Below, one piece after another: positions 27,020 through 51,401 of a stretch of 51,401 bases of DNA. How positions within the stretch are numbered: position 1 is the stretch's first letter; every line of letters starts with the position of its first letter. A program made the position numbers and the translations under genes. Source of the stretch: Candidatus Pacearchaeota archaeon (GTDB lineage: Archaea; Nanobdellota; Nanobdellia; Pacearchaeales; GW2011-AR1); NCBI GenBank assembly GCA_018303925.1, contig JAGVXF010000011.1, positions 10,563-61,963 of the forward strand, in the 5' to 3' direction. Under the pieces are notes generated by a model. It ran no database searches. It saw nothing but the letters and a program-made list of their open reading frames with translations, and was not told where the DNA came from.

Positions 27020-27565
27020 ATGAAAAGAATAGTTTTAATCCTGCTTTTCTTAGTTTTTGTGAATTTTACCTACGCTTCATGCGAGAGCGGACAAATTAAT
27101 ATAAACAGCGCATCAATTGAAGAACTTGATAAACTTGATGGGATTGGTCCTGTAAAAGCACAGGCTATAATTGATGCAAGGCCGTTTGATTCTATTGATG
27201 AAATTATAGATGTCAATGGAATCGGGGAAGTAACACTGCAAAAAATAAAAGACCAGGGGCTTGCATGTGTAAACAATGAAGGGAAAGAAGAAGATTCAAA
27301 AGATAATGATAAAAACAATAAAAACGATGATAACAGAACATATTACAACTTTACTCTTCTTAATGACCCTGTTAAAAATATAACTTACATTGAGGAAAAC
27401 AAAACTCCTATTTATTTGACTCCAAAAAGTATAAAAACCTACGACTCCCAGGAAGAAAAAGGAAGCGCAGATTACATAAAATACTTTTTGATTGCGTTTT
27501 GTGTTTTTCTCGGACTCCTTTACCTAATAAAGCCTAAAAAAAAGAAAAATGAGTTTCAAAATTGA
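27020..27565 (+). CDS. Secreted membrane-anchored helix-hairpin-helix protein (ComEA-like domain)
   Basis: The 181-residue protein has a signal peptide (about 1-19), then ININSASIEELDKLDGIG and IGEVTLQKIKDQG, a double helix-hairpin-helix (residues 25-77) like the DNA-binding part of ComEA. An acidic/Asn-rich linker follows, then a C-terminal membrane helix near residues 153-170 with a basic tail. The protein would therefore present a DNA-binding unit outside the cell. ComEA in bacteria binds incoming DNA during uptake; whether this archaeal protein does is unknown. It overlaps the next gene by 17 bases. Confidence 0.8.
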   Translation: MKRIVLILLFLVFVNFTYASCESGQININSASIEELDKLDGIGPVKAQAIIDARPFDSIDEIIDVNGIGEVTLQKIKDQGLACVNNEGKEEDSKDNDKNNKNDDNRTYYNFTLLNDPVKNITYIEENKTPIYLTPKSIKTYDSQEEKGSADYIKYFLIAFCVFLGLLYLIKPKKKKNEFQN

Positions 27566-40643: not shown

Positions 40644-40980
40644 TTACAATTCTTTTTTTATTTTTAAAATCTCTCTTTCCAGGATAGGAAGATCCTTTTC
40701 AATCATAAGGTATAATCTTTCAACATTTACCCCAAAATATACATGAGAAAGAAAATCCCTTGCTTTTTCAAAACCCTTAAAATTTATGTTTGGATAATTA
40801 TTCTTAAAATCTTCAGGGAGAGACTTTATTGCTTCACCAATTATTTCAAACCTTCTTATAATTGCATCCTGGTCTTTTATACTTTTTGAATTCCTGTAGA
40901 GACTTTTTTCTTGAATATAACTTAATTAACCTTATTGACTTCAAGATATCATTGATATAGACCCGAACATTTCTTATCAT
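40644..40980 (-). pseudogene. hepT: HepT-type (HEPN) toxin with a one-base frameshift
   Basis: The frame from the ATG at 40980 starts IRNVRVYINDILKSIRLIK and ends early. The second frame reads SKSIKDQDAIIRRFEIIGEA and KARDFLSHVYFGVN, with the HEPN RNase/AMPylation-target motif R-x4-H-x-Y intact, to a stop at 40644. The total is 3n+1 bases; deleting one A from a run of six (around 40900) joins the frames as LYSRKSLYRNSKS. The ATG overlaps the MntA stop in an ATGA. Inactive toxin or assembly error are both possible. Confidence 0.8.
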
Positions 40981-41270
40981 ATCAATTGGATTTCCTCCGA
41001 CAAAATTTGCTTTTTTATCTCCGGCTTTATAAGATTATACTCAACTAAATCCACCTCCCTACTTAACAATTTTTCAAGATTTATCTTTAAGTTTGCTAAA
41101 TCTATCAGGCTCCAACTCCCGTCTATTTCAACTAGGATATCAATATCACTTTTTTCTGTTTCCTCCCCTCTTGCATAGCTCCCAAAAATCCCTGCCTTTT
41201 TGATCTTGTTCTTTCTAAGTACTTGGGTAATTTTCTTTTTTATTTCCTTTATTTTATCTTCTTTTTTCAT
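40977..41270 (-). CDS. mntA: MntA-type nucleotidyltransferase antitoxin
   Basis: The 97-residue protein has the minimal nucleotidyltransferase motif GSYARGEETEKSDIDILVEI (GS followed by D-x-D). MntA proteins neutralise HEPN toxins by adding AMP to the Tyr of R-x4-H-x-Y. The last helix (KKQILSEEIQLI) is typical. It overlaps the downstream HepT-type gene by four bases. The pair is on the minus strand, inside the pilin-like cluster on the plus strand. A second intact MntA/HepT pair is at 44544-45172 and shares clear similarity. Confidence 0.85.
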   Translation of the reverse strand: MKKEDKIKEIKKKITQVLRKNKIKKAGIFGSYARGEETEKSDIDILVEIDGSWSLIDLANLKINLEKLLSREVDLVEYNLIKPEIKKQILSEEIQLI

Positions 41271-43560: not shown

Positions 43561-43908
43561 TCATCCACAAATTATTTCGCAAATCTTTTCCTCAACCTCT
43601 TTAATTTTTTTTTCAGAAACTTTTCCTGCATAGTACAGGATAAGAGATTTTCTGATAGTAAATATTATTGAAGGTTTTATGAAACTTTCTCTTTTTAATC
43701 CCCCTTCTGAAAAATCATTTATTCCCAAGTTGATTTGATAAGGGTCAGAAATGTGACTTTTTGAGGTTATTTGACAAAGAATCAAATCTTCCCCTTTTAA
43801 ATTTGCAATGACAACCGCAGGCCTTTTTATCGAAGATTTTAAATTGGAAAACGGAAAATGAGAAATAATAACTTCCCCCTTATGATATTCTTTTTTCATT
43901 TTAGACAT
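43561..43908 (-). CDS. PemK/MazF-type toxin
   Basis: The ATG at 43908 is chosen; an upstream frame extension overlaps the antitoxin. The protein starts SKMKKEYHKGEVIISHFPFS, with the KGEVI...FPF segment typical of the MazF SH3-like barrel. RPAVVIANLKGEDLILCQIT contains the conserved R-P-x-V-V strand. FIKPSIIFTIRK matches the S-x-x-x-x-P region. These toxins cut mRNA. The acidic antitoxin gene precedes it by 13 bases on the same strand. It lies directly after the pilin-like cluster. Confidence 0.85.
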   Translation of the reverse strand: MSKMKKEYHKGEVIISHFPFSNLKSSIKRPAVVIANLKGEDLILCQITSKSHISDPYQINLGINDFSEGGLKRESFIKPSIIFTIRKSLILYYAGKVSEKKIKEVEEKICEIICG

Positions 43909-43921
43909 TTTAAAATAAATT

Positions 43922-44125
43922 TTATAAGTCTTTCCATGCAAGATTATCTTCTTTACTTAGCCAATTTCTGGCTAATAAATCTTCATCTGCATAGTAATCA
44001 ATACTCTCCAACTCTTTAATTCTTTTTGAAATTATTTCCCTTACAAAAGAGCTCCATTTGATATCGGAAAACTTTTTCATTTTATTATAAACTTCTTCGT
44101 CTATTGAAAGGGTAATGTTTGTCAT
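43922..44125 (-). CDS. Antitoxin partner of the MazF-type toxin
   Basis: The 67-residue protein reads NITLSIDEEVYNKMKKFSD at the start, a short strand and helix, then WSSFVREIISKRIKELES, which fits an RHH or VapB-type DNA-binding fold. The acidic tail (DYYADEDLLARNWLSKEDN) would contact the toxin. It is placed directly upstream of the MazF-like gene, so it forms the antitoxin of a type II pair and probably represses their shared promoter. Confidence 0.75.
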   Translation of the reverse strand: MTNITLSIDEEVYNKMKKFSDIKWSSFVREIISKRIKELESIDYYADEDLLARNWLSKEDNLAWKDL

Positions 44126-44543: not shown

Positions 44544-44885
44544 CTATTTTTTTCCATTTAGAATTTCTTTTATTTGCTTTTTCAAAATGGGAATATCTTT
44601 TTTTACTATATTCCAAACAATTCCCAAATCCACATTAAAGTATGCATGAATTATCCTATCTCTTGTTCCGGATATTTTCGCCCATTCAACTTTCGGATAT
44701 CTTTTTTTTATCTCTTTTGAAACATTTTTTGCTGCTTCACCAATTATTTCAAGCCTTCTTATAATTGCATCCTTAATATCTTTATTCTTCCTAAATTCTT
44801 CTTCATATAAATTTGATAATGAGCCCTCTATATCATTTATCGCATCAAGGATGTGCTTTAAGTAAGGAATATCTTGGTATTTCAT
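44544..44885 (-). CDS. hepT: HepT-type HEPN toxin
   Basis: The 113-residue protein is all helical and contains DAIIRRLEIIGEAAKNVSKE and RDRIIHAYFNVD, the latter giving the R-x4-H-x-Y motif. HEPN toxins of this type cut RNA unless AMPylated on the Tyr by MntA. The ATG overlaps the stop of the upstream mntA in an ATGA arrangement, giving tight coupling. Unlike the paralogous pair at 40644-41270, this toxin frame is intact. Confidence 0.88.
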   Translation of the reverse strand: MKYQDIPYLKHILDAINDIEGSLSNLYEEEFRKNKDIKDAIIRRLEIIGEAAKNVSKEIKKRYPKVEWAKISGTRDRIIHAYFNVDLGIVWNIVKKDIPILKKQIKEILNGKK

Positions 44886-45172
44886 ATTATCCTTATCTCA
44901 TCTCCCAAAATATACTTTTTCAGGTAAGGATGAACAGACCTATATGTCAGCAAATCCACTTTTTTTCCCAACCTTTTCTCAAGTTCTAAAATTACCCCAA
45001 AAAATGCAATTCCCATGTCTTTAGGAGGCTCTATAATTATATCAACATCACTTCCTCTTTTTTGCTCCCCCCTTGCATAAGAGCCAAAAATCCCCGCTTT
45101 TTTGATATTGTTTTTTCTAAGTATAGGAACAATTCTCTTCTTTATTTCATTAATTTCTTTTTCTTTTCTCAT
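44882..45172 (-). CDS. mntA: MntA-type nucleotidyltransferase antitoxin
   Basis: The 96-residue protein contains GIFGSYARGEQKRGSDVDII with the GS...D-x-D motif of minimal nucleotidyltransferases. It is paired with the HepT gene through a four-base overlap. It shares the start and active-site pattern (NIKKAGIFGSYARGE) with the MntA at 40977-41270, so the two pairs are probably paralogs. It lies upstream of and divergent from the S-layer gene, across the 508-base regulatory region. Confidence 0.88.
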   Translation of the reverse strand: MRKEKEINEIKKRIVPILRKNNIKKAGIFGSYARGEQKRGSDVDIIIEPPKDMGIAFFGVILELEKRLGKKVDLLTYRSVHPYLKKYILGDEIRII

Positions 45173-45680: not shown

Positions 45681-48167
45681 ATGAAATTTAATTTCAAAAA
45701 AATATCAGCGGTTCTTAGCTCAGTTATAATGACTGGTGCTACTTTAGGATTTGCTGCTGCTGCTAACTTTCCGGCTCCATTTGTAACAAGCGGAGTAGGA
45801 AATGTTGCTATTGTTTACGGTACTGGCGCAGGAATTTCTGCTTTGGACCAAGTTCAGGCAGGAAACATCCAGACAGCTTTGTCTAGCTATGTTACTGGTG
45901 GAACAACAACGATTGATGGAGAGTCTTTCAAATTTGAGAAAACTTCAACCAAATTTCACTTAGGTGATAATATAACGGGGGTTGTTTCTTCAAGCTTGGA
46001 TGATGATGAGTTACCAACTCTTTTGGCGAGTGGAAAATACATCGATGATGATAATGATGAGATTGATTATTCTCAAAAAATTGACATTGGTGCTGCCAAT
46101 CAATTAAGCATGTTTGAAAACAATGACTATGTAGCAGATCAGCCAACTGTTGGATTTATGATTCCTTCAAGCCAAAATGTATTAACTTACACTTTGACTT
46201 TTGAAGATTCACTTTTGATAACAGATATGCCTACAACCGATTTACCTTTAATGGGTAAAAGTTATTATGTATTGTCAAACACTTCAACAACATTAACGTT
46301 GTTGGATTCTGCTGCCTCTACAACTATTGTTGCGGGGGAAACAAAAACATTGACAGTGGGTTCTAAAACCTATACTGTTAGTGCAAGTATTTTTGACACT
46401 GCAAATAGCAAGGTTAAACTGGAAATAAATGGAGAAACTACAAATCTATTAGCAGCTACAGAAACTCAAAAACTTTCTGATGGCGCTTACGTAGGAGTTA
46501 AAGAAGTAGTTGTTCAAAATTTCCAGGGAGGGCAAAACCAAGTAGAATTTAGCATTGGTAGTGGTAAATTAAAAATTACAGATAGTTCAGATGTACAAAT
46601 CAACGATGAATCAATTTCGGGTTTGGTGGGTACAATCACTGACTCTGCTAACGTAATTACCAGTATTGCTCTTGCTTGGGCTGCAGATGAAGATTTATTC
46701 ATCGCAGAAGACAACGCAATAACTATGCCCGGATTCGGGGCAGTTAGTTTATCTTATGGAGGGTTAACTTATCCTTTTGAAGAGATTGTTCAAGTTCAAC
46801 AAGGTGGAGACACTTATGCTACACTTGAGAATTTCCCATTGAAAGATGGTCCAGTGGATATTAATATCCTATATGGAGATAGCGTAAGCTTCACAGGAAT
46901 TGGTAAAGACTCAGACAATTTACTGTTGGTTAGGCCCCCTTCAGATGAGGGAGTAACTACAGGAAACGCAACTAAATTTGACCAGGATGAGCATGATTAT
47001 ATGGTTGTTTCATGGAGTGATGGCAGTGATGCTGAATCATATCTAGTAAGATTTAACAATTTCGTCTTGGATGGTTCAACCAACGAGACAGATATTCAAT
47101 ATTACTCAGATGGTGGTTGGGTAACTAAGAAGGCCGGAGCTAAAGACTCTGACACGGTTACCTTAGGTAATGCTGACATACAAATACATAATATTACCAG
47201 AACACAACATTCTGTTGATATAATGAACAATTCAGCAAATACAAACTTCAACAAACTTTATTCAAAAGAAGGATTGACAGTTTGGTTGCCTTGGCAGAAT
47301 ACTACTGCTGTAACACAAACTAATGGTACAGGTTATGCCACACACGCTGCGGCGTGTACTGCATTTAATGCAGCTAAACTTTGGAGTGTTGGGGAAGTTT
47401 ATACAGGAACTGTAACTTTCAATTTAAGTGCTGCTGTAACTAGTGCCGGAGTAGTTGGAACAGCTTCCAATTGTACGACTTCTGTAGTTCTACAAACTAA
47501 AGAAGAGGATGAGAACGGAAACAAAGGAAGTTCAACATCTCCTGGAGACACAGTTAATGTGACTCTTGGATGGGATAGTTCAACAACTCCAGAAGTGGAG
47601 GTAAGTAGTGTTGCTACAAGTAACGCAGATGCTACATCTACTGAGATATTAGAAACAGACGTATGGAGAGACTTCACTTACTCTGCTCTTGCTACTGAAA
47701 TCTTGTATGACAAGCCAACTTCAGGACAGGACAGTGTGAAGTTGATATATCACGGCGACGAAGTTGCTGCTGATGTATTCATCTCAGAAGCTGATGCTGT
47801 AATCTCAAGTGGAGGTGCTCTTGGCGATGTTCTAGTAACAGACGCTGAGGTAGCTAGTGTTTCAGGCAAAAACTTAGTGATTGTTGGTGGTAGTTGTATT
47901 AACTCAGCTGCTGCTAGCGCATTGGGTCTTGCTGGGCACACATGTAGTGAAGCATTCACTGCTGCTACTGGTGTTGGTGCAGGAGAATTCCTTATTAAAG
48001 GAGTTCAAAATTCTGCTCTGGCTCCGGGTAAGCTAGCACTTGTTGTTGCTGGTTACGAAGCTGCTGATACAGTTAACGCTGCAACTTACTTGACTATGAA
48101 GCCAGTTGATACTTCAAAGACTTACATAGGAACTTCTTCAACAGAAGCTACTTTACAGGTTGCTTAA
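45681..48167 (+). CDS. S-layer protein
   Basis: The 828-residue protein has a signal peptide (about 1-27) and begins its mature part with NFPAPFVTSGVGNVAIVYGT and then VQAGNIQTAL, characteristic of the S_layer_N domain of Methanococcus-type and DPANN S-layer proteins. The middle is beta-rich and Thr/Ser/Asp-rich with many N-x-S/T sequons. The end, GKNLVIVGGSCINSAA and LALVVAGYEAADTVNAA, matches S_layer_C. It should form the outer lattice of the cell. Base use is less A-biased than in neighbours, typical of a highly expressed gene. A long structured leader precedes it. Confidence 0.9.
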   Translation: MKFNFKKISAVLSSVIMTGATLGFAAAANFPAPFVTSGVGNVAIVYGTGAGISALDQVQAGNIQTALSSYVTGGTTTIDGESFKFEKTSTKFHLGDNITGVVSSSLDDDELPTLLASGKYIDDDNDEIDYSQKIDIGAANQLSMFENNDYVADQPTVGFMIPSSQNVLTYTLTFEDSLLITDMPTTDLPLMGKSYYVLSNTSTTLTLLDSAASTTIVAGETKTLTVGSKTYTVSASIFDTANSKVKLEINGETTNLLAATETQKLSDGAYVGVKEVVVQNFQGGQNQVEFSIGSGKLKITDSSDVQINDESISGLVGTITDSANVITSIALAWAADEDLFIAEDNAITMPGFGAVSLSYGGLTYPFEEIVQVQQGGDTYATLENFPLKDGPVDINILYGDSVSFTGIGKDSDNLLLVRPPSDEGVTTGNATKFDQDEHDYMVVSWSDGSDAESYLVRFNNFVLDGSTNETDIQYYSDGGWVTKKAGAKDSDTVTLGNADIQIHNITRTQHSVDIMNNSANTNFNKLYSKEGLTVWLPWQNTTAVTQTNGTGYATHAAACTAFNAAKLWSVGEVYTGTVTFNLSAAVTSAGVVGTASNCTTSVVLQTKEEDENGNKGSSTSPGDTVNVTLGWDSSTTPEVEVSSVATSNADATSTEILETDVWRDFTYSALATEILYDKPTSGQDSVKLIYHGDEVAADVFISEADAVISSGGALGDVLVTDAEVASVSGKNLVIVGGSCINSAAASALGLAGHTCSEAFTAATGVGAGEFLIKGVQNSALAPGKLALVVAGYEAADTVNAATYLTMKPVDTSKTYIGTSSTEATLQVA

Positions 48168-48475: not shown

Positions 48476-49069
48476 ATGATAAAAAGAATTGAAACTAAAG
48501 GCGAAAAAGAAAAAAAATCAAGAAGAAATAGGTGGATACTTGCGGGAATTTTAGTTTTTATAATGATTGGCTCAACATTCGGGATAGTCTTTCAGAATTT
48601 CTCCGGTTCGGGTTCAGGAGGAGGGGGAGAGAGCATAAACTATAATGGGTACACGTTTTTCATAGTGAATGGTTATTATAACCTCCAGACAGGAGACGCA
48701 AACCTTTACTTTTCACTAAATCCCCTGAATGTTGACTCCATTATTAAAACGGTTGAAACAAACAAAACGCTTTCGGATTATATAGGAAAAGTCATTTATG
48801 TTTCTTCTTCTGATTATAACTCTTATGGGGAAATTTATTCAAATCTTGGAAGTTTTGCGCAAAGAATTCAGGAAGCATGCATTGAAGGAGAAGAGTGCCT
48901 TGATTTAAGTCTTCCAATTAAAACCTGTCTGGATAAGACAATAGTAATACGGTCCGCAGACCAAAATAAGATATATGAAAAAGAGAACTGCGTTTACATT
49001 GAAGGAAAAGAGAATGACTTATTGGGCCTTACTGATGAATTCATCTTAAGGATATTCGGCATAAAATAA
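48476..49069 (+). CDS. Membrane-anchored extracellular protein, 197 aa
   Basis: A basic N-terminus (KGEKEKKSRRNRW) is followed by one membrane helix (about residues 20-40), a Gly/Ser linker (SGSGSGGGG), then a domain starting SINYNGYTFFIVNGYYN. Two Cys pairs are visible (EACIEGEEC, KTCLDKT...NCVYIEG). The domain ends near LGLTDEFILRIFGIK. It shares this layout, including a Y-x-G-x-x-F strand and a late C-x-x-I-x-G segment, with the gene at 49308, so the two are likely distant paralogs. Function unknown; probably in the periplasm-like space under the S-layer. Confidence 0.7.
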   Translation: MIKRIETKGEKEKKSRRNRWILAGILVFIMIGSTFGIVFQNFSGSGSGGGGESINYNGYTFFIVNGYYNLQTGDANLYFSLNPLNVDSIIKTVETNKTLSDYIGKVIYVSSSDYNSYGEIYSNLGSFAQRIQEACIEGEECLDLSLPIKTCLDKTIVIRSADQNKIYEKENCVYIEGKENDLLGLTDEFILRIFGIK

Positions 49070-49307: not shown

Positions 49308-49958
49308 ATGGCAAAAAAAGACGAAAAAAATGAAGAGGAAAGAGAAGTTCACACCCTCAAAAAAGAGGAGATTGAAAACCAAAATAAAATAATAAAAGCA
49401 GTTTTCATAATTTCTATAGCGGTAATTGTTTTGTTCGCAATTAGTTCTCTTATTTTTTCAGGCATGAATAAATTTGATTATAAAGGAATAAAGTTTCAGA
49501 CCGAAAAAGTGGGAAGCATTACTTTTTATGATACCCTTACTCTTGCAAATTCGAGCACAGGCGAGCCCTTTGGATTCAGAATAAGAACAAAACCGTCAGA
49601 CTTAAAGGGAATTCCTTTTGAAAATGTTGAAGGTTTAAGACTTATGAAAGTAAACATTATCTCATCAGAAAACCATACTTTTAACTGTGGCTTTGGAGCA
49701 ATGCCAATTACTAACCTACAAATACTTTTCTCCAATATGGGGACGTCTCTTATCCAGGATAAAAATTCAACATGTGACCCCGAAGGAAAATATAATTATT
49801 TCACATTAAAATACGGAAACGAGACTGCAATAAGGGAAGTAGGAAACAGCTGTTATGATATTGTAATAAAAGGAAATGATAATGAATGTGAGATACTTCC
49901 TGCAACTGAAAAACTTATGGTTGAGTTGTATGCAAGGTACCTTAAAATACAAAATTAA
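49308..49958 (+). CDS. Membrane-anchored extracellular protein, 216 aa
   Basis: The first 28 residues are highly charged (KKDEKNEEEREVHTLKKEE), then one membrane helix spans about 31-51. The outer domain starts MNKFDYKGIKFQTEKVGSIT and includes CGFGAMPITNLQILFSN, an N-x-T sequon (NSTCDPEG), and NSCYDIVIKGNDNEC. It resembles the protein at 48476 in topology and in the Y-x-G-x-x-F and C-Y-x-I-x-x-G parts. No named family is recognised. Together with the preceding gene it makes a conserved-looking pair next to the S-layer gene. Confidence 0.7.
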   Translation: MAKKDEKNEEEREVHTLKKEEIENQNKIIKAVFIISIAVIVLFAISSLIFSGMNKFDYKGIKFQTEKVGSITFYDTLTLANSSTGEPFGFRIRTKPSDLKGIPFENVEGLRLMKVNIISSENHTFNCGFGAMPITNLQILFSNMGTSLIQDKNSTCDPEGKYNYFTLKYGNETAIREVGNSCYDIVIKGNDNECEILPATEKLMVELYARYLKIQN

Positions 49959-50035: not shown

Positions 50036-50512
50036 ATGAACCAGATAATTCTTGCAATAATCCTGACACTCCTTCCTATCGTTGAACTTAGGGGCGGACT
50101 TCCTGTTGCCCTTTTAAGTGCATCAAAAGAGAACATATCTCCTATACTTGTTTTTGCGGTTATTGTTCTTTTTAATATCCTTTTAATATTTGCAATATTT
50201 TTCTTTCTTGATTACTTTCATAAAATATTTCTTAAGTTTGAATTCTACAAAAAATTTTATTCATTCTATTTGACTAAAATGCAAAAAAAAATCGACAAAT
50301 TTGAAAAAGCGCACAACTCCATGGGAATTTTTGCACTCTTTTTGTTTGTTGCAATCCCCCTACCTTTGACAGGCGCTTATAGTGGAGTTTTTTTATCATG
50401 GATTATGGGACTTAAGAGAAAAAAGAGCATTCTTGCAATTTCACTTGGAGTTTTAACTTCGGGAATTATAATTTATATCGGAACAATGGGAATCACTTCT
50501 TTTTTAGGCTAG
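50036..50512 (+). CDS. Small multidrug export-like membrane protein (COG2426)
   Basis: The 158-residue protein has about four membrane helices. It begins LLPIVELRGGLPVAL, which is the hallmark of the COG2426 (sm_multidrug_ex, PF06695) family, and later has FVAIPLPLTGAYSGVFLSW. The family name implies small-molecule export, but direct evidence for its substrate is thin. It is convergent with the archaeosortase-like gene, and the two overlap by 20 bases at their 3' ends. Confidence 0.88.
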   Translation: MNQIILAIILTLLPIVELRGGLPVALLSASKENISPILVFAVIVLFNILLIFAIFFFLDYFHKIFLKFEFYKKFYSFYLTKMQKKIDKFEKAHNSMGIFALFLFVAIPLPLTGAYSGVFLSWIMGLKRKKSILAISLGVLTSGIIIYIGTMGITSFLG

Positions 50513-51029
50513 ACTTTTTATAAAAATATTTCAAATCAGCATAAACCGGCATATTATTCACCTTAAAAATTCTCACTTCGTAAAACCATATCAAAACAAC
50601 AAGAACTGTGCTTCCAGCATACCAAAGTATTTTGTGGGCCACATCAAAAAATGGAGAATCATTAATGTACATTGCCCCAAGAACAATTATTCTTATGATA
50701 TTTACAAGTAAAAAGATTAAGAATGAAAGTAAAATCATTTTTATTCTTTTCCCTATTTTTATACCAGACGTTGACAAATTTAAAATTAACAAAAATGAAT
50801 AAGCAGAACCTGCAACGCATGCACCTATTATTTCAATTGCCTTTTCACCGATAAAAATAGAATTTCCGATTAGTGATGCATCAAAAAAGACACTTAAAAT
50901 CCAAAAAACCGGAAACTTGGTCAGGGGCAAAAATACAGCATAAAAAAGGCCAAATCCAAAAAGTGGAATAAGAACAAGAATTAAATACCTTGAAAAAATC
51001 CCTAAAACTTTTTTTGAACCACTCTTCAT
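50493..51029 (-). CDS. Archaeosortase/exosortase-family protein
   Basis: The 178-residue protein has five to seven membrane helices and the three catalytic residues of the exosortase/archaeosortase family in the proper order: Cys in IIGACVAGSAYSFLLI (C71), Arg in VNIIRIIVLG (R113), and His in DVAHKILWY (H132). Such enzymes cut and rejoin the C-terminal tail of surface proteins to a lipid or other anchor. A substrate motif (PGF- or PEF-like) is not visible in the surface proteins of this window. A lineage-specific family of this kind is described for Pacearchaeota. Confidence 0.82.
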   Translation of the reverse strand: MKSGSKKVLGIFSRYLILVLIPLFGFGLFYAVFLPLTKFPVFWILSVFFDASLIGNSIFIGEKAIEIIGACVAGSAYSFLLILNLSTSGIKIGKRIKMILLSFLIFLLVNIIRIIVLGAMYINDSPFFDVAHKILWYAGSTVLVVLIWFYEVRIFKVNNMPVYADLKYFYKKSSLKKK

Positions 51030-51098: not shown

Positions 51099-51401
51099 TC
51101 AATTTTTCGGTGCGACGCCTTTGACGTCATAAACAGCCACCACCCGACCATCGTCGAGGGAATCAGCGAGATCGTCATTCCCGGCACCCAAATTCAAGAG
51201 CCTGCTCAGACAAACCCCAGATAATCCATCGTTTCTTGTATAAAAAATTCTATTTCCTTTATATTTATCCAAATTAATGGGCAATCCCCTTTCGTCAACT
51301 TCATCAAAATTCCATTCATTATATTTTCCTGATAATCTATCATCAACAATAACTTCAAAGTTTGATGCAGGAACAATTTTTACCTCATAACCAGTTTCTT
51401 T
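51099..51401 (-). CDS. Hypothetical protein (partial, N-terminus outside window)
   Basis: The last 100 residues of a minus-strand gene are visible, running off the right edge. They contain YNEWNFDEVDERGLPINLDK and then a more GC-rich end encoding RLLNLGAGNDDLADSLDDGR and VYDVKGVAPKN. I do not recognise a family. The 3' third is clearly more GC-rich than its surroundings (about 51110-51210), which could reflect a recent insertion or selection on the protein. No membrane segment is seen in the visible part. Confidence 0.6.
   Translation of the reverse strand, partial: KETGYEVKIVPASNFEVIVDDRLSGKYNEWNFDEVDERGLPINLDKYKGNRIFYTRNDGLSGVCLSRLLNLGAGNDDLADSLDDGRVVAVYDVKGVAPKN

Follow-up and report, generated by a model that had tools for sequence, protein, structure and literature searches.

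The open reading frame at positions 50493–51029 (minus strand) of the window, the 51,401-nucleotide stretch analysed here from a Candidatus Pacearchaeota archaeon, a tiny organism of symbiont type, bears the hallmarks of a genuine archaeosortase-family enzyme and is predicted from its sequence to cleave a single surface-coat protein and anchor it. The enzyme very probably acts on the PACE-CTERM putative S-layer protein, and it is likely to be an archaeosortase dedicated to this single substrate. The two genes lie close together in nearly all enzyme-bearing genomes of the family, and in this genome they are separated by a contig break.

The enzyme

The frame is intact and encodes a polytopic membrane protein of 178 residues. 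In a profile search it matches the curated NCBI family NF033505 (NF033505.2, ‘pacearchaeosortase’) with 217.8 bits (E 9.3e-65, cut-off 80 bits) over nearly the full length of the model (positions 3–166 of 167). The match to TIGR04178, the generic exosortase/archaeosortase signature, is 31.7 bits (cut-off 23 bits). The next-best specific families are ArtE (TIGR04124, 34.8 bits) and archaeosortase D (TIGR04175, 28.6 bits), yet both scores are far below the respective cut-offs of 95 and 125.

All 29 aligned sequences share Cys71, Asn110, Arg113 and His132; they range from members of the window’s genus to those of sister families and are 28–65% identical to the window protein. Cys71, the predicted nucleophile, is found in a GACVAGSAY motif (codon at 50817–50819, minus strand), and its role is assigned by analogy with Cys173 of Haloferax archaeosortase A (ArtA, PMC9263693). 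Arg113 (50691–50693, minus strand) is part of an N-x-x-R motif, and the codon of His132 occupies positions 50634–50636 of the same strand. The sequence-only reading of the window had recognised the Cys, Arg and His of the exosortase family, and these are the residues in question; loss of the triad was looked for in relatives and no case was found in the 29 sequences. As in other members of the exosortase/archaeosortase superfamily, the TIGR04178 signature is combined with Cys, Arg and His in a helical membrane context. The AlphaFold (AF2) model of the enzyme is mostly helical (mean pLDDT of 90.5). A structure search of the PDB with this model gave no match (E ≥ 2), and no solved structure was found in the PDB among the sequence relatives of the enzyme.

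The gene is single-copy in the 636-kb genome (G000). Above-cut-off NF033505 proteins, one per genome, were found in 45 of the 55 genomes covered by a search of relatives, and a class-wide draw contained them in 138 of 330 genomes. A sister-family genome carries a tandem pair of pacearchaeosortase genes (G261:C46:3604-4634).

The partner coat protein

A single PACE-CTERM protein (G000:C4:14787-16406, 539 residues) was identified in this genome by a profile search with NF033506 (PACE-CTERM-PROT, ‘putative S-layer protein’), which it matches with 457.6 bits against a cut-off of 110 bits. It ends in a C-terminal helix followed by an Arg-Arg-Lys (RRK) tail. In its structural model, Ig-like domains are strung like beads ahead of a terminal helix (residues 512–537); the mean pLDDT is 74, and quality is poor before residue 130. 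The structure search with the coat-protein model returned generic Ig-like bead matches only, with low TM-scores.

The gene immediately upstream of that for the enzyme in relatives typically codes for a large surface protein, which contains Ig-like domains and has a helix plus a basic tail at its C-terminus. The pairing was quantified in the 65 enzyme-bearing genomes of the window’s family within the class draw. In 61 of them, the same contig encodes the enzyme and an NF033506 protein with no more than 2,846 nt between the two, and the NF033506 gene is upstream on the same strand in 60, with a median distance between match ends of 202 nt in the family genomes. The four exceptions comprise three genomes with the pair on different contigs, including the one described here, and one without a substrate match. 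Four family genomes that lack the enzyme (G085, G292, G317 and G335) have no above-cut-off PACE-CTERM protein among the matches listed. NF033506-matching coat proteins also occur in some other enzyme-less genomes, so the ectodomain of the coat protein is not dependent on the enzyme. In one relative (L014/L101, G022:C4:57595-57687), the coat protein stops before the helix, and a short open frame of its own, close by, encodes that helix, owing to either a frameshift or an assembly error.

Two C-terminal profiles, run at E ≤ 10, each find a single protein in this genome, the PACE-CTERM protein, which suggests that one enzyme serves one substrate here. The NF033505/NF033506 pair is already named in NCBIfam, and the NCBI models may have been built around the enzyme–substrate association itself. 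No published paper on the pair was found in a literature search that covered few subscription papers. Both proteins of this genome match their models far above the cut-offs, and their arrangement fits the gene order of the 60 genomes once the break is allowed for. It differs from that order only by an intervening gene and an assembly break inside that gene.

The contig break between the two genes

The right end of the window is the end of contig C22. An open reading frame immediately upstream of the enzyme gene (51401–51099, minus strand) runs off this end and represents the 3′ part of the intervening gene. Its 5′ part (G000:C4:16434-16847) begins 27 nt after the PACE-CTERM gene and is truncated where contig C4 ends. 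A paralogue on contig C5 (G000:C5:5129-5875) spans both pieces as one frame, with 87% identity over 238 joined residues, and is interrupted by a scaffold gap of 18 N whose position coincides to the base with the ends of C4 and C22. Both copies were therefore broken by the assembly at one shared stretch. The natural reading, in view of how the genes are ordered in relatives and of where the contigs break, is that C4 joins C22, which would place the intervening gene between the substrate and enzyme genes. A less likely alternative is a swapped joining, of C4 to the right half of C5 and of C22 to the left half of C5.

The lack of a substrate in the window results from the assembly. The sequence-only reading had described the enzyme as having no visible substrates nearby, and that none lies nearby was not confirmed: the window stops at a contig end, and relatives carry the substrate gene next to the enzyme gene or no more than 2.9 kb upstream. 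Its suggestion that the targets lie elsewhere holds in the literal sense that the gene is on another contig of the assembly, but the gene order of relatives and the matched breaks place it beside the enzyme.

The intervening gene belongs to a small family (51099–51401, minus strand; G000:C5:5129-5875; G000:C20:5843-6511). At the 3′ end the copies differ, with 76% DNA identity, and the GC content is high, at 0.54 compared with 0.34 across the window; by sequence, this end resembles the variable regions found in targets of diversity-generating retroelements. Such retroelements are reported to be prevalent in DPANN archaea (PMC6349945). The genome has three reverse transcriptase genes (C3:17061-17702, C14:13494-14102 and C21:49283-49918), one of which follows an Asn-rich stretch resembling a template repeat; a search for a template repeat matching the intervening gene found none.

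Neighbouring genes

The convergent neighbour of the enzyme gene (50036–50512, plus strand) encodes a protein of the small multi-drug export family PF06695 (105 bits, cut-off 30.7) and is conserved beside the enzyme within the genus (loci L002, L003, L005, L006, L013 and L018). Two further conserved neighbours on the plus strand (49308–49958 and 48476–49069) each encode a protein with one N-terminal membrane helix. Most relatives read have an open reading frame similar to the former in the corresponding position, and L005, L007, L016 and L019 have one similar to the latter; neither neighbour has a family match in the Pfam/NCBIfam profile search. Across the order and class, the membrane- and lipid-handling families PAP2, VTT/DedA and PF06695 recur beside the enzyme. 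Lipid-related neighbours are 50036–50512 in the window and genes in relatives L008, L009, L012, L014, L015, L017, L022, L113 and L114.

Farther away, the gene at 45681–48167 (plus strand) encodes an 828-residue secreted protein that lacks a C-terminal helix, has no Pfam/NCBIfam match and is possibly the main S-layer protein. The open reading frames at 44544–45172, 43561–44125 and 40977–41270 resemble, by eye, nucleotidyltransferase/HEPN-like and toxin/antitoxin pairs.

A conserved polar residue within the coat-protein helix

None of the 30 aligned C-terminal stretches of coat proteins contains a PGF/PEF-like tripeptide before the helix. Instead, the helix carries a conserved Asn or Asp. In the window’s family, the core of the helix is mostly [ALIV]-N-[IVL]-[IVL]-L, and in sister families it is mostly W-[IVL]-[IVL]-[GAV]-D-[IVL]-x-L, with the two cores sharing one alignment column. 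The polar residue is located in the outer third of the helix, near its outer end and inside the hydrophobic stretch, deeper than the PGF motif. A putative sorting signal that differs from the known one, with no tripeptide before the helix and an Asn/Asp within it, is supported by these alignments. The sequence-only reading had raised the possibility of a different signal in this lineage. A complete lack of shared motifs, which would have spoken against it, was not observed: one is present among homologous coat proteins across genomes, although not among many unrelated proteins of one genome.

The association of this residue with the enzyme was examined in NF033506-matching coat proteins, 58 from enzyme-bearing and 21 from enzyme-less genomes. 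A strict pattern, in which Asp/Asn follows two and precedes five hydrophobic residues within the last 42, is present in 49 of the 58 and in two of the 21 (p=1.2e-9). When the window’s family is excluded, the counts are 24/30 with the enzyme vs 1/20 without, and by family majority they are 14/18 vs 1/11 (p=4.8e-4). With an earlier, looser Asn/Asp pattern, which counted loop residues too and was abandoned for the strict one, the figures were 49/58 vs 5/21 (family p=0.027). Since both patterns were chosen post hoc, the strict one after the sequences had been seen, and since the sequences share ancestry, the association is a strong lead and not proof. In nine enzyme-bearing genomes, the best-matching coat protein lacks the Asn/Asp, and in some of these another paralogue may be the substrate. 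In f29, a sister family without the enzyme, the corresponding segment reads WILG-I-VVL, compared to WILG-D-IVL in enzyme-bearing families; among the matches listed, f29 genomes have none to the general archaeosortase signature.

Within selected window proteins, two of 49 hydrophobic segments have the strict pattern, and neither is a lone C-terminal anchor. Three surface proteins of the window (starting at 27020, 28061 and 29248) had been described as ending in a membrane helix and basic tail without a PGF/PEF-like motif. The lack of the motif was confirmed for all three. The helices of 27020 and 28061 are ordinary and have no Asp/Asn core, and in 29248 about 80 residues follow the helix. For these reasons none has the shape of a sortase substrate, and the three, which share no motif, were rejected as candidates.

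Proposed mechanism and alternatives

Haloferax archaeosortase A provides the analogy for a proposed mechanism: it cleaves and lipidates the S-layer protein of its host cell in a reaction tied to lipid attachment (PMC7157517), and it needs Cys173, Arg214 and Arg253 (PMC9263693). On this analogy, an N-terminal signal peptide would direct export of the PACE-CTERM protein, and the C-terminal helix (512–537) together with the Arg-Arg-Lys tail would retain it in the membrane. The enzyme would recognise the helix with its Asn (Asp in sister families) near the outer end, with no PGF tripeptide involved. Cys71, aided by Arg113 and His132, would then attack a peptide bond close to where the helix begins, the expected cleavage site, and release the helix and tail. 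Finally, the amine of a lipid would take over the acyl group from the enzyme, so that the coat protein ends up with a lipid anchor. We regard proteolysis as probable and give the transfer of a lipid onto the coat protein an even chance, as the latter step is backed only indirectly, by the recurring PAP2, VTT/DedA and PF06695 neighbours. The polar residue itself could be the recognition element, a role we assign to it tentatively. That the DPANN system swapped the pre-helix tripeptide for an intramembrane Asp/Asn read by the enzyme, and lost this residue wherever the enzyme was lost, is more speculative still.

The Haloferax volcanii system (ArtA, HVO_0915, and PGF-CTERM proteins; PMC7157517, PMC9263693) is similar in its Cys and Arg, in its coat substrate, the S-layer glycoprotein, and in the C-terminal helix and basic tail of that substrate. 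Unlike that system, the one described here has no PGF before the helix and an Asn/Asp inside it, and one substrate was detected here vs many for ArtA. Compared to ArtA, which was considered by its published description and needs Arg253 (PMC9263693), the third conserved residue here is the invariant His132.

The diversity of proteins processed by archaeosortase A (PMC7157517) makes it conceivable that the pacearchaeosortase, too, acts on numerous surface proteins whose signals vary, the neighbouring coat protein being just one. Several relatives do give extra weak matches to the C-terminal model, but those read are ordinary helices, mid-protein helices or cytosolic-tailed proteins, and they were dismissed as chance helices. 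Together with the single match that either model gives in this genome at E ≤ 10, this makes a broad substrate range unlikely. A similarly low probability is given to a scheme in which the helix is a plain anchor and its Asn/Asp contacts the enzyme-like protein within the membrane, the latter being a chaperone or an assembly factor that does not cut. A polar residue in a single helix is a usual means of helix–helix contact, and its conserved position within the hydrophobic stretch, deeper than the PGF motif, would suit such a role; the invariance of Cys, Arg and His in sequences down to 28% identity points to catalysis instead.

The large protein encoded at 45681–48167, about 2.3 kb from the enzyme, has a signal peptide, but it ends in ...TSSTEATLQVA with no helix or basic tail and does not match NF033506. 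Its own sequence contradicts a substrate role, which we consider extremely improbable. A more serious possibility, at somewhat less than an even chance, is that the Asn/Asp merely marks a clade of the coat protein and is unrelated to the enzyme, in which case the pairing of the two proteins would still stand. The coat-protein sequences are related by descent, and the enzyme-less families may be clades of their own; the association nevertheless persists when the window’s family is left out and when families are counted as units.

Implications

The way in which DPANN archaea fix their coat, the surface that meets the host, is hardly known. The lineage-wide, one-to-one pairing of a predicted archaeosortase with a coat protein, marked by a one-residue signature, makes this anchoring step testable. 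The case also calls for caution: where no substrate is seen near an enzyme at a contig end, relatives should be checked before a new mechanism is proposed. If the polar residue is indeed read by the enzyme, a single residue of the coat protein would predict whether the enzyme is present.
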